Origin: Verrucomicrobiota bacterium
GTDB taxonomy: Bacteria; Verrucomicrobiota; Verrucomicrobiia; Limisphaerales; JADLHS01
Length of the DNA stretch: 64,000 bases
Assembly (NCBI GenBank): GCA_029573725.1
Contig: JAKQDQ010000028.1
Location: 248,001 to 312,000 of the forward strand
Direction: 5' to 3'
Each line of letters starts with the position of its first letter. The first letter of the stretch is position 1. This document shows positions 10,669 to 46,896 of the stretch, piece by piece. The notes below the pieces were generated by a model that saw nothing but the letters and a program-made list of their open reading frames with translations, did no database searches and had not been told where the DNA came from. A program made the translations under genes and the position numbers.

Positions 10669-11975
10669 AACCATGCCTCCTGTTCATCCTCGCCGTGTGC
10701 TGCGGCCTGCGCGCCAGCGCGGCATTGCAGATCCCCGCCTTCACCGCGTACCTCGATCCCGATCCCGATGGCGCCCGCGTCTCGGAACGTTCCGGCATCA
10801 CGCGCTGGCGGGACCCGGACTTGAAGGTTTCGTGGTTCGGCGAGTTCAAGACCCCGGGCAAATTGGAGGCCGCCATCGAACTGCGCTTGCCGGCGGGCGC
10901 GACTTCCAAGTTGCGGCTGACCGTTGCCGGCCAGGCGCACGAGGCCACCGCCCACGGCGACGACACCCATCCGGTCACAGTGAAATTTGGCAGCTTCGAG
11001 CTTGCCACCGCTGGCTACCAGCGATTCACCCTCGAATCGTTGAATCCCGCCGGACAGAGCGCCGGGGATTTGAAGACGCTCATCCTCGATGGCCCGGCCA
11101 CCGCAGACGCGCATTTCAATCTCAAGGAACGCCGCAATGCCGCCTCCGTGCATCTCGTCTATCCCGTCGGCAAAGGAACGAATGTGCAGGCCTTCTATTG
11201 CGAGATGACCGGAGTGGAAGACCCGATCTGGACTTATTACATGGCCTGCGGCTGGCATCGCGGCTATTTCGGGATGCAGGTGAACAGCCCGACGGAACGG
11301 CGCATCATCTTCAGCGTCTGGGACAGTGGCAACGAAGCCGTCAGCCGCGACAAAGTCGGGCATGAAGACCGCGTGACCTTGGTCGCCAAAGGCGAAGGAG
11401 TTTATTCCGGGGACTTCGGCAACGAAGGCACGGGCGGCCACAGCCATCTCAAATTTCACTGGAAGACCGGCGAGAAACAGCGCTTCCTCGTCACCGCCAG
11501 ACCGGTGGATGCCACGCACACGATCTTCTCGGGTTACTATTTCCGGCCGGATCAGAAAAAGTGGATGTTGATTTCGAGCTGGAAGGCCCCGAAAGACGGC
11601 GGCTGGCTGCGCGGGCTTTACAGTTTCAGCGAAAATTTCGTTGGCGACAACGGGCAGTTGCGCCGCAAGGCGCTTTACGGCAATCAATGGCTCCAGACCG
11701 ATGAGGGGCAATGGATCGAGGTGACACAAGCCAGTTTCAGCCATGATCCGACCGGAAATGCCGACCGGCTGGATCGGTTCATGGGTGTCGAGGACGACGC
11801 GTTCTTTCTGAGTCAGGGCGGATTCGTCCCGGGCTTCACCCGGTTCGGCGAAACATTCTTCCGGCCCGCCACCGGCCGGCCGCCCACCGATCTTGAGTTG
11901 CCTCCGCTGCCCGTGCTAAAGACCGCCGCGCGCGCCGCCAACCTGCTGCCGGAGCCATCCACGGCGGTCCACTGA
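10665..11975 (+). CDS. Secreted DUF3472/DUF5077-type protein
   Basis: A 436-residue protein with a signal peptide (residues 1-19). The N-terminal beta-sandwich (residues ~22-135) resembles DUF5077. The DUF3472 core follows, with GYFGMQVNSP, RRIIFSVWDSG, GSHSHL-like and KFHWKTGEKQRFLV motifs. Such proteins are common in polysaccharide-use loci of Bacteroidota and Verrucomicrobiota, but their biochemical role is unproven. The ATGA overlap with the preceding gene suggests translational coupling. The unknown secreted protein at 14188 appears distantly related. Confidence 0.75.
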   Translation: MKPCLLFILAVCCGLRASAALQIPAFTAYLDPDPDGARVSERSGITRWRDPDLKVSWFGEFKTPGKLEAAIELRLPAGATSKLRLTVAGQAHEATAHGDDTHPVTVKFGSFELATAGYQRFTLESLNPAGQSAGDLKTLILDGPATADAHFNLKERRNAASVHLVYPVGKGTNVQAFYCEMTGVEDPIWTYYMACGWHRGYFGMQVNSPTERRIIFSVWDSGNEAVSRDKVGHEDRVTLVAKGEGVYSGDFGNEGTGGHSHLKFHWKTGEKQRFLVTARPVDATHTIFSGYYFRPDQKKWMLISSWKAPKDGGWLRGLYSFSENFVGDNGQLRRKALYGNQWLQTDEGQWIEVTQASFSHDPTGNADRLDRFMGVEDDAFFLSQGGFVPGFTRFGETFFRPATGRPPTDLELPPLPVLKTAARAANLLPEPSTAVH

Positions 11976-12314: not shown

Positions 12315-14186
12315 ATGAACGCCGATGTCCACCAATCCCCTCGTTGCCGACCCGGCCTGGCGACCGTGCTTGCCTTCATCCTGCTGGGCATCGCCAGCGC
12401 CCCGGCCGCGCCTCGTCATCAGTTCGCGCTCGGCACCAACGATTTTCTCCTGGATGGCAAACCGTTTCAGATGCGGGCGGGCGAGATGCACCCGAACCGC
12501 ATCCCACGCGAGTACTGGCAGCAGCGGATTCGCATGGCCAAGGCGATGGGCTTGAACACCATCGCGGTTTATATTTTTTGGAACTACCACGAGCCGACCG
12601 AGGGGAAGTTCGATTTCAAGACCGGCAATCGCGATCTGGCGGAGTTTTTCCGCCTGGTGCAGGCGGAGGGCCTGTGGCTGCTGGTGCGGCCCGGCCCGTA
12701 TTGCTGTGCCGAATGGGATTTTGGCGGCATCCCGAGCTACCTGCTGCGCGAACCGGACCTCAAGGTGCGCTGCCGCGACCCGCGTTATCTGCGCGCGGCG
12801 GAACGGTATCTCAAGCAACTGGCCCGGGTGATCCGCCCGTTTCAAATCACCCGCGGCGGCCCGATCCTTCTGCTCCAGATTGAAAATGAATACGGCAGCT
12901 ACGGGAACGACCGCGAGTATCTCGAATGGTTGCGAAAGCTCTGGCGCAAACAGGGCATTGACATTCCGTTCTCCACCGGCGATGGCCCGACCCCGTACAT
13001 GCTCGAAGCGGGCTCGTTGCCGGGCTGCGCGGTGGGACTGGACTCCGGTTCGGCGGAATCCCACTGGGAACTGGCGCGGCGCATCAACCCCGGCGTGCCC
13101 GTCTTCAGCAGTGAAACCTATCCCGGCTGGCTCACGCACTGGGGTGAATCCTGGGCGACGGTTTCCACCGCCGGCATCAGCAAGGAAGTCACCTTCCTCA
13201 TGGACCATCACAAATCGTTCAGTCTTTACGTCGTGCATGGCGGCACGAGCTTTGGCTTCACCGCCGGCGCGAATGCGGATCGCCTGCGCGTCTCCACCAA
13301 CGGCGTCGCCTCGAGTTTTCAGCCGGACGTGACCAGTTATGATTACGACGCCCCGATCAATGAACAGGGCCGGCCCACGCCGAAGTTTTATGCCCTGCGC
13401 GAACTCATCGGCGCGCGCCTGCCGGCGGGCGAATCCTTGCCGCCGGTCCCCGACGTCATCCCGGCGATGATGCTGCCGCCCATTTCACTGGAGCGCTGGA
13501 GCACGCTTTGGGACGCGCTGCCCCAGCCGGTCACCGCGCCCCAGCCGGTTACTTTCGAGCAACTCGGCCAGAACCAGGGCCTGGTGCTCTATCGCACCCG
13601 GCTGATTGGCCACAAGGGAGGACAACTGATTCTCCGCAACCTGCACGATTACGCGCTGGTGTTTCTGGACGGCAAATTCGTTGGCACGGTGGATCGGCGG
13701 TTGAACCAGACGGAGATTCACCTGCCCCGCTCCAGCGAGCCGGTGCCCGTGCTGGAGGTGCTGGTGGAAGGCTTGGGGCACATCAACTTTGGCGAGTTCA
13801 TCATTGATCCGAAAGGCATCACCGACCGCGCGGTGCTCAACGGCATGACGCTGATGAATTGGAAAATGTTCTGCTTCCCCTTGCAGGATGATTGGGTCAC
13901 CCGGCTGCCGTCGGCTGCCGCCAAGTCCGATCGGCCGGGCGCATTCTTTCGCGGCCATTTCCAGGTCGCGACACCGGCGGACACCTATTTCGACCTGAGC
14001 CAGTATCGCAAGGGCGTGGTCTGGGTGAACGGCCACAATCTGGGGCGTTATTGGGAAATCGGCCCGCAGACGCGGCTGTATTGTCCCGCCAACTGGTTGC
14101 GGCGCGGCGACAACGTAATCACCATCCTCGACCTGCTCGCCACCGAACCCAAACCCGTGAGCGGACACGAAACCCTGAAGGACTAA
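12315..14186 (+). CDS. Secreted beta-galactosidase, GH35
   Basis: A 623-residue protein with a signal peptide (to about residue 32). The GH35 TIM barrel shows MRAGEMHPNRIP, YIFWNYHEP, RPGPYCCAEWDFGG and IENEYGSYG; Glu192 is the likely acid/base and Glu267 in VFSSETYPGW the nucleophile. Beta-sandwich domains follow, ending with GVVWVNGHNLGRYWEIGPQ typical of GH35. It removes terminal beta-galactose from glycans. It starts 34 bases after yhbY, and the next gene begins one base after its stop. Together with the GH29 fucosidase downstream it fits trimming of fucosylated galactan or O-glycan chains. Confidence 0.93.
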   Translation: MNADVHQSPRCRPGLATVLAFILLGIASAPAAPRHQFALGTNDFLLDGKPFQMRAGEMHPNRIPREYWQQRIRMAKAMGLNTIAVYIFWNYHEPTEGKFDFKTGNRDLAEFFRLVQAEGLWLLVRPGPYCCAEWDFGGIPSYLLREPDLKVRCRDPRYLRAAERYLKQLARVIRPFQITRGGPILLLQIENEYGSYGNDREYLEWLRKLWRKQGIDIPFSTGDGPTPYMLEAGSLPGCAVGLDSGSAESHWELARRINPGVPVFSSETYPGWLTHWGESWATVSTAGISKEVTFLMDHHKSFSLYVVHGGTSFGFTAGANADRLRVSTNGVASSFQPDVTSYDYDAPINEQGRPTPKFYALRELIGARLPAGESLPPVPDVIPAMMLPPISLERWSTLWDALPQPVTAPQPVTFEQLGQNQGLVLYRTRLIGHKGGQLILRNLHDYALVFLDGKFVGTVDRRLNQTEIHLPRSSEPVPVLEVLVEGLGHINFGEFIIDPKGITDRAVLNGMTLMNWKMFCFPLQDDWVTRLPSAAAKSDRPGAFFRGHFQVATPADTYFDLSQYRKGVVWVNGHNLGRYWEIGPQTRLYCPANWLRRGDNVITILDLLATEPKPVSGHETLKD

Positions 14187-28105: not shown

Positions 28106-30535
28106 TCATTTGTAGAGCAGGTACCGCTCGCGGCGCTGCTGGAAGTCCACCAAATCCATCTTCCAACTGGCGCGGATGTCATCAAGGGATTTGTCCTCCT
28201 TGACGGCGTTCAGGGTGGCGGCATGCAGCAGGAGATTCTTCGGCTTCTCCACGGGAAAATCCTTTGGATAGAGCCGATACGCGGTCTTCATGATGAGCAA
28301 TCCCACGTCCACCACGTTGCACGTTTTGCGATCGTTCAACATGATGTAAACGCCGCCACATTCCTTGCCCTGGTGAACACTGTAGGTGGGGGTGAACCGG
28401 ATCGGCACAAAGCCCACCCCCGGTAACGCGGCGCGATTCAGCTCCGCCGCCAGTTTCACGTCGTCAATATAGGGCGCGCCCACGACTTCAAACGGCGTGT
28501 CCGTCCCCCGCCCCACCGACAGCGCGCTTTCCAACAAACCGACGCCGGGATAAAGAATCGCCTGCTTCAAATTGCGCATGTTGGGCGAGGGATTGGTCCA
28601 AGGCAGATCCGTTTCATCGAAATACGTGTGGCGCGACCAGTTTTCAAGCGGGATGACGGTTAATTTGGCGTGCGTCCGGCGTTCTTCATTGTACATGAGC
28701 GCCAGTTCGCCCATGGTCATGGCGTAGCGCAATGGCGTGGGATGGAAACCGACAAAACTCGTCGGTTCAGTGAGCACCGGACCGTCAATCGTCACCCCGT
28801 CAATCGGGTTGACCCGGTCCAGCACGAAGTATTCGATGCCGGCCTCGGCGGCGGCCTCCATGCCCAGCCCCATGGTGGAGGTGTAGGTATAGAACCGGCA
28901 GCCCACGTCCTGAATGTCGAACACCAGCGCGTCGAGGCCCTGCAGTTGTTCCGGAGCGGGTTTGCGGCGCTGTCCATACAGGCTGTATATCGGCAGGCCG
29001 GTTTTGGCGTCGGTGCCGTCGCCTACCTGCTCGTCGGCCACGCCGCGGATGCCGTGTTCCGGACTGAACAGGGCGACCAGCCTGACGTCAGGCGCGTGGA
29101 ACAGCAGGTCAATCGTGCTACGCCGGGCGCGGTCGTGTCCGGTGTGGTTGGTGATCAATCCGATCCGCTTGCCCCGGAGCGGCGCAAAGTTGCGTTGCAC
29201 CAAAACGTCAATGCCGTCCAACACCGGCCCCTTTCGCCCTGCTTGACGGAGCGGGGCGGGGCTGCTGCCGCTGCGCGCGTGATCCGAGGAGGTCCGCGGC
29301 GGCAACGCCCCGGTCACATGGGTGAAATCGAAGTCCTTGATGGCGGCGGCCGCCAGGGTGCCCAGCTGGCGGCGCAACGCCAACACACTGCCCTGCTCGG
29401 TGGGATGATTCCGGTTCGACAAAAAAATGACGAAGGACTTGGAAAAGGGGTCAATCCAGAGGGAGGTCCCCGTCCAGCCGGTGTGGCCATAAGATCCGAG
29501 GGGGAAGATGTCTCCGCGCGGTCCGCTGAAACCGGTGTCAATGTCCCAGCCGATGCCGCGCCGGCCATTCACATTGGGCGGCGTCTGCACGCTGGTCATG
29601 AGTTGGACCGTTTCCGGCCGGAAAATCCGCACGCCATCGAGCTCGCCGCCATTGAGCAGCATTTGCGCATAGCGCGCCAGATCGGAGGCGGTGAAAAACA
29701 AGCCGGCATGACCCGCCACCCCGCCCATCCGGCGCGCGCGTGGATCATGCACCACTCCGCGCACCGGCACCCCGTTCTCCACTTCCGTGGGCGCAATCCG
29801 CGCCAATTTGGACGGGGGCGGATTGAAGCCCGTGTCCTTCATGCCGAGCGGCCCATATACTTCACGTTGCAAGAACTGATCCAGCGGCTGGCCGGCCACG
29901 CGATGCACAATCTCGCCCACCAAGATTGGCCCGGTGTCGCTGTACACAATTTTCTCACCCGGCCGGCTGGCCAGTTTCTCGGCGCAGGCCAGTTTGATGG
30001 CGGCGGCGGTGCCGTTCCAGTCCGGCTTCAAACTGATGTCGGGACGCAACCCCGAAGTGTGGGTCATCAACTGGCGCAGGGTCACCTCCTCCTTGCCGCC
30101 GCCGGTGAAGTCGGGCAAATATTTCGCCACGCGATCCTCCAGGCTCAACTGGCCGCGTTCCACCAGCAACATGAGCGCCGGGGTGCAGGCCACCACCTTC
30201 GTCAGGCTGGCGGCATCGAAGAGGGTATCCTCGGTCATCGGCTCAACCGCCGGCACGACCGCTCGCTGGCCGTAGGCCCGGTGATACGTTGCGCCATCAT
30301 GCTGCAGCCACAGCACCCCGCCCGGACATTTCCGGTCCGCAATGGCGGCGTTAATGGCCTGATCCATCTCCGCCAATTTCTCTGGGCGGAAGCTGGCGCC
30401 CGGCTGGGCCAGGCTGTTGAGTCCGAAGGTCAGCGCCAGCAATCCGGCGGCGCCGGCCCTGGACCAGACGGAATACGTGCCGCGACCGGCGGGAGTTATA
30501 GTCGATGACATCAGGGTGGAGGGGTCTTGGTTCAT
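28106..30535 (-). CDS. Fusion: class C beta-lactamase-fold serine hydrolase + NamZ-type exo-beta-N-acetylmuramidase (GH171, DUF1343)
   Basis: An 809-residue exported protein. After a hydrophobic leader (residues ~26-44), residues ~50-405 form a penicillin-binding-protein/beta-lactamase fold with Ser110 and Lys113 (AASLTK), Tyr198 (VYSDTG) and HTG at 351-353. A Pro/Ser/Arg-rich linker (410-437) leads to a DUF1343/NamZ domain (438-809). That domain has LITNHTG, FSPEHGIRG (Glu493-His494), VFDIQDVGCRFYTY and GRGTDTPFEVVGAP. NamZ releases N-acetylmuramic acid from peptidoglycan ends. The first domain may act on peptide or ester bonds of muropeptides. The gene overlaps marC by ATGA. Confidence 0.9.
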   Translation of the reverse strand: MNQDPSTLMSSTITPAGRGTYSVWSRAGAAGLLALTFGLNSLAQPGASFRPEKLAEMDQAINAAIADRKCPGGVLWLQHDGATYHRAYGQRAVVPAVEPMTEDTLFDAASLTKVVACTPALMLLVERGQLSLEDRVAKYLPDFTGGGKEEVTLRQLMTHTSGLRPDISLKPDWNGTAAAIKLACAEKLASRPGEKIVYSDTGPILVGEIVHRVAGQPLDQFLQREVYGPLGMKDTGFNPPPSKLARIAPTEVENGVPVRGVVHDPRARRMGGVAGHAGLFFTASDLARYAQMLLNGGELDGVRIFRPETVQLMTSVQTPPNVNGRRGIGWDIDTGFSGPRGDIFPLGSYGHTGWTGTSLWIDPFSKSFVIFLSNRNHPTEQGSVLALRRQLGTLAAAAIKDFDFTHVTGALPPRTSSDHARSGSSPAPLRQAGRKGPVLDGIDVLVQRNFAPLRGKRIGLITNHTGHDRARRSTIDLLFHAPDVRLVALFSPEHGIRGVADEQVGDGTDAKTGLPIYSLYGQRRKPAPEQLQGLDALVFDIQDVGCRFYTYTSTMGLGMEAAAEAGIEYFVLDRVNPIDGVTIDGPVLTEPTSFVGFHPTPLRYAMTMGELALMYNEERRTHAKLTVIPLENWSRHTYFDETDLPWTNPSPNMRNLKQAILYPGVGLLESALSVGRGTDTPFEVVGAPYIDDVKLAAELNRAALPGVGFVPIRFTPTYSVHQGKECGGVYIMLNDRKTCNVVDVGLLIMKTAYRLYPKDFPVEKPKNLLLHAATLNAVKEDKSLDDIRASWKMDLVDFQQRRERYLLYK

Positions 30536-40436: not shown

Positions 40437-40512
40437 GGGCCCATAGCTCAGCGGTCAGAGCAGGCGACTCATAATCGCTTGGTCCTCGGTTCAAATCCGA
40501 GTGGGCCCACCA
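40437..40512 (+). tRNA. tRNA-Ile2 (anticodon CAU, lysidine-modified type)
   Basis: A 76-nt tRNA with encoded CCA. Acceptor arms GGGCCCA/TGGGCCC pair perfectly. The anticodon loop CTCATAA sits on stem GGCGA/TCGCT with anticodon CAT (40470-40472). The run AGGCGACTCATAATCGCTTGGTC is the hallmark of isoleucine tRNA with C34 modified to lysidine by TilS, rather than methionine tRNA. The disturbed sulfatase/YfhO region begins 4 bases after its 3' end. Confidence 0.9.
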
Positions 40513-40516
40513 ATCC

Positions 40517-40958
40517 GCCCTGCGCCCCCCGGCCTTCACGGTCGTGGGACTCCGGCCGCCAGCCGGGTTTCGGGCCGCGGCTGAAGCAGCGAACGGTAGT
40601 AATCGTAATGCTTCAACAACCCCGCCTGGAACGCGTCAAACTGCCCAAAATCGGGAACGCTCGCCTCCGGATCCCGCAACTCCGGATATTGCGATTCCGC
40701 GCCGGAATTCTGGATGGAATACGAGCGGAAATGCGATTTGCCGCGTTCGCCAAAATGCATCCGCCTGCCTTCCAGAACGGCGTATTGGGAAAAGCTGTTC
40801 AAGTAAATGGTCCGCGCCCTGGCGGCCGCCGGCGAGTACAACGAAACCCCCTGATACAGCTGGTTGTGTGGAAGGGGCACCCCCAGCTTGTCGAGGATGG
40901 TGGGCAGCAAATCCACCTGCGACCCCACCGTATAATTGATCGCCCGCTCCGGTCGGGT
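40517..40958. repeat. Long direct repeat, copy A (sulfatase 3' end)
   Basis: About 442 bp nearly identical to 44038-44479 in the same orientation and without indels. About a dozen mismatches were counted by eye, which is roughly 97% identity. The left boundary is GCCCTGCGCCCCCCGG, a few bases after tRNA-Ile. The two copies are 3521 bases apart. Confidence 0.93.
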
Positions 40959-41321
40959 CGGGTCCATGATGATCAACGGGACATTAGCCAGCTCGGGAGT
41001 CAAGCGCCACCCGTGCCCGATCGGACCGCCGTTCTCCCCCAGCATTTCCCCATGATCACCGGTGATCACCACCAGCGTCCGGTCCAGCAACCCGGTGGCC
41101 TTCAATTCATCCAGTAAACTCGCCACCACCCAGTCCATGTAGAGCAGATCATTCAGGTAGCGCGGAGTGAAATCCTTGTATTCCACATCCGGGAATTTTT
41201 TGAATCGTTCCGGCGTGCCGTCGTAGGGATAATGCGGTGCGGCGGGAATATAGCTCATGAAAAAGCGTTGCGAGGATTGCGCGTGTTGCCGAAGAAAGGC
41301 CCGCATTGCCGCCAACCACGG
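40536..41321 (-). pseudogene. Truncated sulfatase/LTA-synthase-type phosphatase-superfamily gene, C-terminal part (copy A)
   Basis: About 260 residues with the C-terminal half of an alkaline phosphatase superfamily sulfatase. FFMSYIPAAPHYPYD and TLVVITGDHGEMLGENGGPIGHGW supply metal-binding Asp/His motifs, and VGSQVDLLPTILDKLG is typical of sulfatases and phosphoglycerol transferases. The family N-terminus, with the catalytic Cys/Ser or Thr, is missing. On the minus strand, an in-frame TAA lies immediately upstream (41322-41324), followed by a palindromic element. The fragment could start at TTG 41315 but cannot be a complete enzyme. A shorter near-identical copy lies at 44057-44509. Confidence 0.85.
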
Positions 41322-41418
41322 TTAGGTGCGGCATCTTTGTAGAAATGGCCACAACAGAATCCCAAGCTCCGCAGGAGCGATATATCCGCCGCACCCTATG
41401 TCGCCTCCACAGAGCTTG
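41322..41418. repeat. Palindromic element (MITE/REP-like) at the break in the sulfatase gene
   Basis: Two nested symmetries are visible. TTAGGTGCGGC at 41322 and GCCGCACCCTA ending at 41399 form 11-base imperfect terminal inverted repeats. CAAGCTCCGCAGGAGCGATAT (41363-41383) is also imperfectly complementary to ATGTCGCCTCCACAGAGCTTG (41398-41418). The element starts exactly where the sulfatase frame is broken. It encodes nothing. Confidence 0.55.
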
Positions 41419-41437
41419 CGGTTTATTTTTCCGCGCG

Positions 41438-41454
41438 TAACTACAACTATGTCG
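41438..41454. repeat. 17-bp direct repeat, left copy
   Basis: TAACTACAACTATGTCG is identical to 44020-44036. The two copies flank the YfhO-like gene, one 118 bases past its 3' end and the other 172 bases before its 5' end. Confidence 0.8.
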
Positions 41455-41471
41455 CGCCTAACGGTGCTGGC

Positions 41472-41489
41472 CGTGGGCATCGGCCCACG
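41472..41489 (-). terminator. Hairpin downstream of the YfhO-like gene
   Basis: CGTGGGC and GCCCACG pair perfectly around loop ATCG, 83 bases beyond the YfhO-like stop on the minus strand. No T-run follows on that strand, so termination is uncertain and it may belong to the repeat-rich filler. Confidence 0.3.
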
Positions 41490-41571
41490 ATAATGGGTTC
41501 AAAATAGATTCGCCCCCGTAGAGGTCGCACATTTCTTCAACGCCTGACCGCGGATTCCCACCCACGATTGT

Positions 41572-43848
41572 TCACGTCGGGCCGCGTTGCGGTCTGAAAG
41601 GGGGAAGCACTTCCCGTTTGCGGCGCACTCCGAACCATAAGCAGCCAAACAAAGTTACTCCAGAGATAATTGCTCCGATCTTGAAGTTCGGATCGCTATA
41701 AGTAAGAATGACTTCGTGCTGCCCCGCTGGGACCTCCAGCGCCTGAAAGGCCAGGTTCGCTTGAAATAATGGAGTGCAATTCCCACTTACATTAGCCTTC
41801 CAGTGATGATAATAAGTCTGCGACAAGACCACCATGCTCGGCGCCGTGGTCTCTGTTGTGAAGCTGACTTGGTTCCGCTTGAACTTGAGCCCCGTCACCG
41901 TACACTCAGTTTGGTTAGTGACTGTGATCATCTTTGCCGCCTGTTCTGGCAAATAAACAACATTCAAGGGTACAAAATCGTTGCCTTTCATTGCTTGCCA
42001 ACTCTGATCTGCTGTGGCGAATATTGGCCGTTGCCCAGCAGTAACAAGAGGCAAGGCGGTCGCTCGCCACTCCCATTCCGTTGGATTATTTGACGATGAA
42101 ATCCATGCGATCGAAAGAAAGTCCAATAACGGTTGGCCGAATGTTTGCTTGGTGTAGTACAACTGTCGTTCTATAAAGTCGAAATGGCTTGGGCGTAATG
42201 TAATTGCTCCGTTTACCTTCGGAATTTGATCCAGCAAATTCAGATTGTACCACTCGGCAAGACGTTTTCCCGTCAGATCCAATGCAAAATTCTTTATGGG
42301 ACTATAAGTTAATAATCTCTCAGCCTCCGGACTAATCATTATTCGACCTTGGCCTAGCGCCGGGGGCAGAGGTTTATCGGAAAGTTGCCAGAGATTCCGC
42401 GTCAAACTAGCAGTTGGCAAAGTAGGAGCCTGCTGTTCGTTGTGGGTGAATGCATCCAACGGGAATACCGCGAGTACAAGTAATTGCAGCCCTAATTTGT
42501 ATTTGCCTGCTGGAAGTTTAGTCGCAAGCCAGACGCCGCCAACCGTAAGCAGCATCAAGCCACTACGCAGCGCCGCATTAGCCGCGGTGGCAGGCCAGTC
42601 GTCATAAGGGAACGGATATAACTTTGCGATAAGAACAAATAGCGCAACCAAACACAACGCACTCATGCCTATAAACACCAGCTTCCGATTGCTGCGCCAA
42701 TCAGTCGGTTGAATCCCACTAATTCCCCACGCCATCAACAGCGGCAAGAAAAACGCCGTCGGAATGGCATACTTCACTGGAAATCTGGCGATACTAATCA
42801 ACGGGAAAACTTTGTTTAGCCACCCAAACAAAACGCCATCGTTGCCCAATGCAAGAATCCAGCAGAGAAGGGTCAGACCCCCAATGGTCAAAAATTTCCG
42901 TTCAGGCCTGATGAGCAAGCCGAAAGCCGCCAACACAATTGCACTGATCCCTAAATAATATGAAACAAGAAATTCCTGGCCGTACTGAAACCACTGCCCC
43001 TGTGGTGAATGATAAGTGTGGAACAAAGGCACAAATAAATTCGCCCACCCCCAACCAGGCATTGCCCATGCCGCGCTTTCCCTTCCGGCAATTTCACGCT
43101 GCGAATGCACCAATAAGTCCAGAAACGGAAGCATTTGCACCATCGTCAAAGCCGATGCGATGGCTACTACCAAGCCAACGCGAAGAACCACTTTCGTCGG
43201 CTTCATTTCTCGCTTGAAAACGGCACCCGCTAAGAGAGCAATCAATCCTATCCAAAATACCAGAGTGATTTCTGGTGTTCCCGTCAAGACTTGCAATGCA
43301 CTAAATACTGCAGCAAGGACGGTATATTGCCGCCCATATTGACATGCCATCTTAACGGTGATGACCACCCACGGCATCCAGGCCAGCGAAGCAATATAAT
43401 TCCCCCAGACAAGGCAGGACAAGGTCACGCCATTGAAAACGAACGCAAGCCCCGCGGCCTGTGCGGCGAACTTTTCCACGTCCCACTGGCGACACAAACA
43501 ATAAACCCCGGTGCCGCCCCAGATTAAATGCAGCAGCTCAAAAAAATTTACTGCCCAAGGAATGGGAAGCAACGAAGCTAACAATGCAGGTGGGTACCAA
43601 ACACCCATCTGAGCCATGAACGGCACACCAGCATGACTGAATGGATTCCAAAGCGGTAACTCTCCACCCCAGAGAGAATCATGCAGATAAACGGCATACG
43701 GGTAGCCAAGCGCGGCAAAATCACGAAAAAAAAATGTTTCAGAGCCTAGTGCAACTTTGAGAAACAAAGCAAAAACGGCCCCCGCGAGAAGCAAGGTGAA
43801 ATGTACACCTTCATTCCACATGCTGGAGTGGGTATTGCGTATGGCCAT
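41572..43848 (-). CDS. YfhO family multi-spanning membrane protein
   Basis: A 758-residue protein with a dozen or so hydrophobic helices in residues ~15-480 and a C-terminal soluble beta domain. FFFRDFAALGYPY, LPLWNPFSHAGVPF and GVWYPPALL near the N-terminus match the YfhO/GT-C-like membrane protein pattern. The end (VVLSQTYYHHWKAN, LEVPAGQHEVILTYSDP, GAIISG) is also typical. In Gram-positives YfhO glycosylates lipoteichoic acid; the role here is unknown, but cell-surface glycosylation is likely. Base use differs from its neighbours: a 60-base sample at 42301 has 26 G+C (43%), against 39 (65%) at 12481. It sits between two copies of a sulfatase fragment, suggesting acquisition or rearrangement. 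Confidence 0.8.
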   Translation of the reverse strand: MAIRNTHSSMWNEGVHFTLLLAGAVFALFLKVALGSETFFFRDFAALGYPYAVYLHDSLWGGELPLWNPFSHAGVPFMAQMGVWYPPALLASLLPIPWAVNFFELLHLIWGGTGVYCLCRQWDVEKFAAQAAGLAFVFNGVTLSCLVWGNYIASLAWMPWVVITVKMACQYGRQYTVLAAVFSALQVLTGTPEITLVFWIGLIALLAGAVFKREMKPTKVVLRVGLVVAIASALTMVQMLPFLDLLVHSQREIAGRESAAWAMPGWGWANLFVPLFHTYHSPQGQWFQYGQEFLVSYYLGISAIVLAAFGLLIRPERKFLTIGGLTLLCWILALGNDGVLFGWLNKVFPLISIARFPVKYAIPTAFFLPLLMAWGISGIQPTDWRSNRKLVFIGMSALCLVALFVLIAKLYPFPYDDWPATAANAALRSGLMLLTVGGVWLATKLPAGKYKLGLQLLVLAVFPLDAFTHNEQQAPTLPTASLTRNLWQLSDKPLPPALGQGRIMISPEAERLLTYSPIKNFALDLTGKRLAEWYNLNLLDQIPKVNGAITLRPSHFDFIERQLYYTKQTFGQPLLDFLSIAWISSSNNPTEWEWRATALPLVTAGQRPIFATADQSWQAMKGNDFVPLNVVYLPEQAAKMITVTNQTECTVTGLKFKRNQVSFTTETTAPSMVVLSQTYYHHWKANVSGNCTPLFQANLAFQALEVPAGQHEVILTYSDPNFKIGAIISGVTLFGCLWFGVRRKREVLPPFRPQRGPT

Positions 43849-44019
43849 GATTGGTTTATGGATCGTTTTATCAGGCGGCTCGATTCTCTCTCATCCGGGT
43901 CTGACTTCCATTAGTCGCCTTTCTTGATGATTTTTGATGCCATGTTCAAGATCGAGTACAGCTTGAGACTAGAGGTATAGAAATGATCATGCCAGAATCA
44001 AGACCGTAACCCGTGAAGG

Positions 44020-44036
44020 TAACTACAACTATGTCG
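44020..44036. repeat. 17-bp direct repeat, right copy
   Basis: TAACTACAACTATGTCG is identical to 41438-41454 and abuts the start of the long direct repeat copy B at 44038. The surrounding 43849-44037 stretch has no gene. Confidence 0.8.
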
Positions 44037-44037
44037 G

Positions 44038-44479
44038 GCCCTGCGCCCCCCGGTCTTCACGGTCGTGGGACTCCGGCCGCCAGCCGGGTTTCGGGCCGCG
44101 GCTGAAGCAGCGAACGGTAGTAATCGTAATGCTTCAACAACCCCGCCTGGAACGCGTCAAACTGTCCAAAATCGGGAACGCTCGCCTCCGGATCCCGCAA
44201 CTCCGGATATTGCGATTCCGCGCCGGAATTCTGGATGGAATACGAGCGGAAATGCGATTTGCCGCGTTCGCCAAAATGCATCCGCCTGCCTTCCAGCACG
44301 GCGTATTGGGAAAAGCTGTTCAAGTAAATGGTCCGCGCCCTGGCGGCCGCGGGCGAGTACAACGAACCCCCCTGATACAGCTGGTTGTACGGAAGAGGCA
44401 CCCCCAGCTTGTCGAGGATGGTGGGCAGCAAATCCACCTGCGACCCCACCGTGTAATTGATCGTGCCCTCCGGCCGGGC
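44038..44479. repeat. Long direct repeat, copy B (sulfatase 3' end)
   Basis: About 442 bp nearly identical to 40517-40958. Similarity stops near 44480 within the sequence encoding RPE-INYTVGSQ, after which the two copies are unrelated. Confidence 0.93.
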
Positions 44480-44509
44480 CAGAGCCGGAATGAGTTGCTC
44501 CGGCGACAT
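44057..44509 (-). pseudogene. Truncated sulfatase-type gene, C-terminal fragment (copy B)
   Basis: An open frame of 150 residues that repeats the last ~140 residues of the fragment at 40536-41321 (INYTVGSQVDLLPTILDKLG to the identical C-terminus). The first ~12 residues (MSPEQLIPALARPEG) are junction sequence. All sulfatase active-site motifs lie in the missing part, so it is a remnant. Its presence shows that the sulfatase 3' end was duplicated. Confidence 0.85.
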
Positions 44510-44654: not shown

Positions 44655-45008
44655 TTATTGATTCGGCAGGACGTGGTTCGCGACAGTACATGTGGGAGCA
44701 TTCGCTAGACTGCCAATGGCATACGTTCCACTAGCCGGGCACGCCGGCTCCGTTTTAATATAGAGCCCGGCCCCATACAGGTCGTTATCTGTCGGGGTCG
44801 CAGTCGGAGCGGCCTTGATTTCCAGCGCCCACTGCTGTTTGGCTCCATCAATCTGTCGGAGGTTGTTGATACACGCGTTCATTCGCGAGGTTTCGCGCGC
44901 TTTCACGAAATTCGGAATCGCGATCGCAGCCAGGAGGCCGATGATGGCCACCACGATCATGATTTCGACCAGGGTGAAGCCCGCTTTACGGGAGGTATTG
45001 ATCTTCAT
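44655..45008 (-). CDS. Type IV pilin-like/type II pseudopilin small protein
   Basis: A 117-residue protein. A short leader ends at Gly10, then FTLVEIMIVVAIIGLLAAIA with the conserved Glu5 follows. The motif NACINNLRQIDGAKQQWAL matches the alpha-helical continuation of type IV pilins. Two cysteines near the C-terminus (CPASG, CTVAN) could form the pilin D-region disulphide. Compared with DUF1559 proteins it is short and resembles true major pilins or GspG. A paralogue lies at 45897-46280, also on the minus strand, separated by 888 bases without a gene. Confidence 0.92.
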   Translation of the reverse strand: MKINTSRKAGFTLVEIMIVVAIIGLLAAIAIPNFVKARETSRMNACINNLRQIDGAKQQWALEIKAAPTATPTDNDLYGAGLYIKTEPACPASGTYAIGSLANAPTCTVANHVLPNQ

Positions 45009-45896: not shown

Positions 45897-46280
45897 TCAG
45901 GGATTGGTCCGGCGCCCCAGCCGATGCGGCGGGGTGCTATTTTCATTGGGACAGGTGACACTGGGCACCGAGGCCACGGTGCCGCCCAAAACGTAGTCCA
46001 CATTTCCCGCCGGACACACCGGCATGATTTTGTCTTTGATGTATTCCCGCACGTTGTCCGCCGTCACCGGATCGGCATCGCGCTTGTTGTTTTCCAGGGC
46101 GTACTGCTGAATGGCGTTGTCAATCTGCCGCATGTTGGCAATGCAGGCATTGGCCTGGGCGGTGTTGCGGGCTTTGATCATGTTGGGGATGGCGATCGCC
46201 GCCAACATCCCGATGATCGCCACCACGATCATGATTTCCACCAAGGTGAAACCAGCGTTTTGATTCGTCTTAATTTTCAT
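45897..46280 (-). CDS. Type IV pilin-like/type II pseudopilin small protein
   Basis: A 127-residue protein. The ATG at 46280 is preceded by AAAGGA at a reasonable distance and gives the leader MKIKTNQNAG before FTLVEIMIVVAIIGMLAAIA; an in-frame start 72 bases upstream would lengthen the leader unnaturally. NACIANMRQIDNAIQQYALENN continues the pilin helix. Two cysteines (MPVCPAG, SVTCPNE) bracket a possible D-region loop. It is closely related to the protein at 44655-45008 in its first ~55 residues and different beyond. Confidence 0.92.
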   Translation of the reverse strand: MKIKTNQNAGFTLVEIMIVVAIIGMLAAIAIPNMIKARNTAQANACIANMRQIDNAIQQYALENNKRDADPVTADNVREYIKDKIMPVCPAGNVDYVLGGTVASVPSVTCPNENSTPPHRLGRRTNP

Positions 46281-46896
46281 CGCTACATGTCCTTTTGCTT
46301 GCCCGCCAGCCATTCCGGCCTTGCCTTCGTTCCCGGCCCCGGATTTTTCCATCCTAGCCGACTTTCACCGCATTGCAACGCGTAACCTGACGCGACACCC
46401 GCAGTGATCCGACCAGCGTGCTTTCCCCGATTGCCCAGGCTTCCTGCCAATCCGCCGCTCCGAACCCGCCGCCCGCCACAAAACGCAATCACCGCACGGG
46501 GGAAAAAGTTGCGCGGGGCGGGACATTTTCGCTTCCATCCGGGGTGAATTCCTGTGGAAGCCGGTTCTAGCCGGCGATTGCTTGCCCGCCGCACGGCGAC
46601 CATCGGGGAACTTGCCCGTTTGCCGCGGACCGGGCCATTCGCTGAATGGGATGTGGCGCGAGGACGGCTCAGGGTGCGACGCCCCGGAACGACGGAACCC
46701 CGCTTAAATTCGACGTGCCCGCGAGGTGATTTTGAGGCGATTTCCCATTTGCCTCCGGACGTGACTCCGTTAAGCTGTCAAGCGGTGGCCCAGAAGGCCC
46801 GCAACGGCGGACCTTCCGCATAGGCGTCCCGGGGACGCACATGCGCCGAAGAAGTGCAAGGTCACCCGTTCCAAACAACCAACAACCATTGCAACC
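46281..46896. other. 616-base divergent stretch without a supported gene
   Basis: This lies between the minus-strand pilin gene and the plus-strand rhodanese gene. Open frames are short, overlapping and of low-complexity composition. It must carry the promoters of both flanking genes, but no box pair was convincing. Confidence 0.5.

Follow-up and report, generated by a model that had tools for sequence, protein, structure and literature searches.

Remnants of a predicted native sulfatase gene flank a low-GC YfhO-family gene and lie beside REP/TIR-like sequence in a Verrucomicrobiota genome

Two incomplete copies of a sulfatase gene lie on either side of a membrane protein gene within a 64-kb stretch of Verrucomicrobiota DNA (hereafter the window). 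In the account that we consider probably correct, a native gene for a membrane-anchored sulfatase of the LtaS superfamily would have been duplicated locally, with the join point of the duplication at a REP/TIR-like palindromic repeat. The 5ʹ parts of both copies would have been lost, and the low-GC YfhO-family gene that lies between the remnants was probably acquired in a separate event. We infer both the tandem duplication and the order of events from the arrangement of the DNA, building on direct observation of the repeat, the unequal truncation of the two gene copies, the palindrome where the left copy is cut, the exact 18-bp match to its end beside the right copy and the intact genes of relatives. 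The locus as a whole is a product of ordinary genome reshuffling. The window is part of a 355-kb contig (C30) in a draft genome of 4.28 Mb that comprises 187 contigs and is 96% complete.

The direct repeat lies at 40517-40957 (left copy) and 44038-44478 (right copy), both on the plus strand. Each copy is 441 bp long, and the two agree at 428 of 441 positions without gaps, as expected from the two repeats of about 442 bp and 97% identity described in the original prediction. The 13 differences are distributed unevenly, with three in the first 300 bp and ten in the last 141 bp, and five of them are packed into 22 bp at the far edge. A scan of the window in twenty-one 3-kb tiles detected no further direct repeat of at least 60 bp inside a tile. 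Seven codon differences are synonymous and four are non-synonymous, a synonymous share that exceeds the neutral expectation of 25-30% (P about 0.01-0.02) on what are small numbers. This excess suggests that the copies diverged while the sulfatase gene was still under selection, so that duplication may have come before truncation; alternatively, one copy may derive from another strain. Tandem duplication after truncation is the simplest geometric model, but it does not predict the synonymous excess.

The left remnant (40536-41315, minus strand) encodes the C-terminal 259 amino acids of the sulfatase and matches positions 155-301 of the 301 in the Pfam Sulfatase profile; it lacks the N-terminal membrane part as well as the initial half of the catalytic domain. 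In the right remnant (44057-44509, minus strand) the last ~140 amino acids are homologous, no Pfam match is obtained, and the first residues of the frame are junction sequence. Thus, both copies are C-terminal fragments, as had been proposed, but they are unequal rather than the same. Both are also truncated in the 5ʹ part, in keeping with the earlier observation that neither retains the N-terminus, and the complete PF00884 catalytic domain with its N-terminal nucleophile region, present in relatives, is missing from each. Loss of the first half of this domain should leave neither remnant active as a sulfatase. Both are stop-free open frames with sharply cut edges, which favours rearrangement over simple point decay, again as originally suggested, given the full-length gene carried by relatives.

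Among relatives, uninterrupted genes encoding 897-959 amino acids with one Sulfatase domain were found in three genomes (G001, G004 and G006) and four further loci (L092-L095), and the intact protein shares about 51-55% identity with the left remnant. The closest sulfatase loci in the public genome collection belong to Verrucomicrobia metagenome assemblies. A search of the present genome with an intact relative protein yielded only the two remnants and distant sulfatases, and no N-terminal sulfatase piece. Because relatives carry intact genes and no N-terminal piece survives elsewhere, both remnants are predicted to derive from a native sulfatase gene that has since been lost. A comparison with relatives had been proposed as a check on the locus, with a shared arrangement in a conserved gene order counting against acquisition or unequal exchange. 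The relatives’ sulfatase loci are intact and contain no YfhO match, and two sulfatase copies around a YfhO gene were encountered in none of the relatives examined.

Pilin-like genes lie downstream of the intact sulfatase in four relatives (G001, G004, G006 and L095). In G001, G004 and G006 the sulfatase and an fcl-like gene (GDP-fucose synthase) stand back to back. In the present genome, fcl resides on another contig and adjoins neither a sulfatase nor a pilin gene. The window carries a type IV pilin-like or pseudopilin gene (N_methyl) at 44655-45008 on the minus strand, of the type found beside the relatives’ intact sulfatase, and a second pilin-like gene (N_methyl) at 45897-46352, also on the minus strand; their 173-194-bp 5ʹ parts are 71-72% identical. 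These genes precede the remnants here, whereas in relatives they follow the intact sulfatase. Elsewhere in the window, one frame of 809 amino acids (28106-30535) fuses a beta-lactamase-family domain to the N and C domains of the exo-beta-N-acetylmuramidase NamZ.

The evidence for how the two copies were joined comes from an imperfect palindrome of about 155 bp (~41315-41468), which had been overlooked in the original prediction together with an 18-bp sequence at 44019-44036. Sulfatase homology in the left remnant stops at ~41315, and the palindrome, whose ends read ACCACGGTTAGGTGCGGCATCTTTGTAG and CTACAACTATGTCGCGCCTAACGGTGCT, sits exactly at this 5ʹ cut. Its terminal part, GTAACTACAACTATGTCG (41437-41454, plus strand), recurs exactly at 44019-44036 on the plus strand, one base before the right repeat copy. 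Allowing up to two mismatches, the genome contains no further copy of this sequence, and no other 18-mer is repeated in the 64-kb window outside the pilin paralogues and the 441-bp repeat. At the left copy the sulfatase tail comes first and the element second, whereas the right join begins with the element end and continues into the sulfatase tail, a reversal that would be the signature of a tandem-duplication join with a unit spanning 40517-41454. The join at 44019-44038 thus lends support to the earlier suggestion of unequal or local exchange followed by deletion. REP clusters have been described as hot spots of recombination and rearrangement (PMC11708052), and REP sequences at tandem-duplication join points were reported by Shyamala et al. 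1990, as cited in PMC11708052 and PMC7661048.

The palindrome is one member of a dispersed family. Counted from search matches, 22 sites in the genome match 41310-41480, six of which (itself included) have E < 1e-4, and elements of 142-195 bp on five other contigs align with the palindrome over its full length. Its DNA folds only slightly better than shuffled sequences (z -1.3), and we therefore do not claim a strong hairpin. On contig C127, elements of this kind lie on both sides of an IS200-like Y1 transposase gene (L036:620-1081; about 13020-13480 of the contig), whose product matches PF01797 (E 2e-23) and exceeds the cut-off of the NCBIfam model transpos_IS200 (NF033573), but falls below that of REP_Tyr_transpos (37.6 against 80 bits). 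This dense cluster is a likely source locus of the repeat family. The combination of a dispersed multi-copy palindrome and an IS200/IS605-like Y1 transposase with repeats on both sides marks this as a family of the REP/TIR type described in PMC3733652, a paper that also reports GTAG-tagged REPs in Verrucomicrobia. A GTAG is present here about 9 bases from the nearest stem, and the family therefore resembles the TIR type more. The earlier statement that no recombinase is visible holds locally, but a transposase-associated repeat family sits exactly at the breakpoint. A separate 447-bp direct repeat (93% identity, spacing 492) occurs on contig C71 (L002:1296-2233; about 10996-11933) and includes a palindrome copy plus flanking sequence. 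It exceeds the element itself, whereas in most other local repeats involving the family the element alone is duplicated.

Between the remnants, a gene for a multi-spanning membrane protein of 758 amino acids (41572-43848, minus strand) matches the YfhO family (PF09586, E 1e-8); the match scores 34.4 bits against a gathering score of 28.5 and covers only profile positions 753-835, in the C-terminal part. Its GC content of 0.497 (GC3 0.527) is the minimum of the window, which averages 0.613, confirming that the interposed gene is of lower GC. The 41465-41571 interval between palindrome and YfhO gene is gene-free and contains a perfect 7-bp hairpin (CGTGGGC-CGAT-GCCCACG) on the minus strand. The gene is single copy in the genome, and its homologues are patchy in the family, order and class, with at most 42% identity; a search for a close donor in 384 genomes of the class found none, the best match being 41% identical. 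We consider that the YfhO gene was probably acquired separately from the sulfatase and would be of foreign origin. The original prediction offered acquisition of a surface glycosylation/sulfatase locus as one possibility. Its arrival as a unit finds no support because the sulfatase is native to the family, only the YfhO gene deviates in composition, and the relatives’ sulfatase neighbours are fcl and/or pilin-like genes, never this YfhO gene.

The position of the left copy invites a different origin, in which a mobile island integrated at the 3ʹ end of a tRNA-Ile gene and then decayed. ARAGORN identifies a tRNA gene with a CAU anticodon at 40437-40512 (plus strand, labelled Met), and Rfam confirms a tRNA. 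Its anticodon arm, GGCGACTCATAATCGCTTGGTC, is one that we take to be that of bacterial tRNA-Ile2 (lysidine type), so the gene is probably tRNA-Ile2, and the isotype given in the original prediction is probably right despite the ARAGORN label. The left repeat begins at 40517, four bases past the tRNA as stated there, and tRNA 3ʹ ends are common attachment sites. Neither feature expected of a tRNA-integrated genomic island, a duplicated tRNA 3ʹ end (att site) or an integrase beside the tRNA, was seen. The 3ʹ end matches the window only once when up to three mismatches are allowed, and no integrase is among the main reading frames that lie between rpoD and nusA, all of which are assigned to other families. 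The sulfatase is, moreover, a native family gene. Integration at the tRNA is largely refuted by the lack of a second attachment site in the window, and we regard it as extremely improbable. Neither a CAU tRNA nor a sulfatase follows rpoD in any of the relatives’ regions compared; three relatives of the same genus have a tRNA-Ser there, and the nusA-infB order is kept in relatives while its left flank is not.

The exact copies of GTAACTACAACTATGTCG that bound the YfhO segment (about 41455-44036) could also mark its insertion in one piece at the end of the palindrome, with an 18-bp direct repeat left behind; the sulfatase duplication would then be older and separate. The deviating GC content of the segment and the patchy occurrence of its homologues in the order, at no more than 42% identity, are consistent with such an event. 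The segment carries neither transposase nor integrase, however, target duplications are not known for IS200-type transposases, and the distance of a single base between the right 18-mer and the repeat edge would be left to chance, so we consider this reading unlikely. An extension of it, whereby the element and the IS200-like transposase moved the YfhO cassette into the locus and left the 18-bp repeat and the duplication as by-products of REP-mediated gene capture, is very unlikely. An artefact of the metagenomic draft, in which assembly joined variants of the locus from two strains, would suit the state of the genome (187 contigs, 96% complete) and the mostly synonymous differences between the copies, as strain variants would show. 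Against this, the edges of the copies are sharp and different on both sides, the contig extends over 355 kb, and the right join shares just 18 bp with the palindrome, which is below the usual assembly words and would not arise by simple collapse; an artefact is thus quite unlikely.

The preferred reading, local duplication of a native sulfatase gene at the palindrome, has difficulties of its own. The presumed second unit retains only 18 bp of palindrome at one end and 441 bp of sulfatase at the other, and with so little kept at least two further deletions or insertions would be needed. The model also gives no account of the order ‘pilin then sulfatase’ here as opposed to ‘sulfatase then pilin’ in relatives. 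As it stands, the locus would explain the loss of a conserved surface-enzyme gene and leaves the general picture unchanged. It offers a clear case, from an uncultured Verrucomicrobia lineage, of a small gene duplication whose join carries a REP-like repeat. Were REP-mediated capture of a neighbouring gene to be proven, a repeat family that is usually deemed passive would gain a function.

Parallels with known systems can be drawn for each component. The intact relatives resemble the LtaS/YejM/phosphoglycerol transferase-type superfamily (PF00884) in joining an N-terminal hydrophobic part, with about 10 hydrophobic segments by simple hydropathy, to a C-terminal sulfatase domain, although the relative tested reaches none of the NCBIfam equivalog cut-offs and the window holds C-terminal remnants only. 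Verrucomicrobia are not known to possess LTA. The YfhO of B. subtilis, which acts in LTA glycosylation (PMC5836110), shares with the present protein its multi-spanning membrane character and a PF09586 match above the gathering score, but an LTA substrate is not to be expected in Verrucomicrobia. As in REP/BIME and RAYT/TIRYT systems (PMC3733652), imperfect palindromes of about 150-195 bp are dispersed and, in one cluster, lie around an IS200-like Y1 transposase gene; here, in contrast, GTAG is not flush with the stem and the transposase is below the REP_Tyr_transpos cut-off. The duplications of Shyamala et al. 1990, as represented in the papers that cite them, were large and arose in laboratory strains, whereas the present one is small, old, eroded and read from sequence only; both have a palindromic repeat at the join of the duplicated segment.
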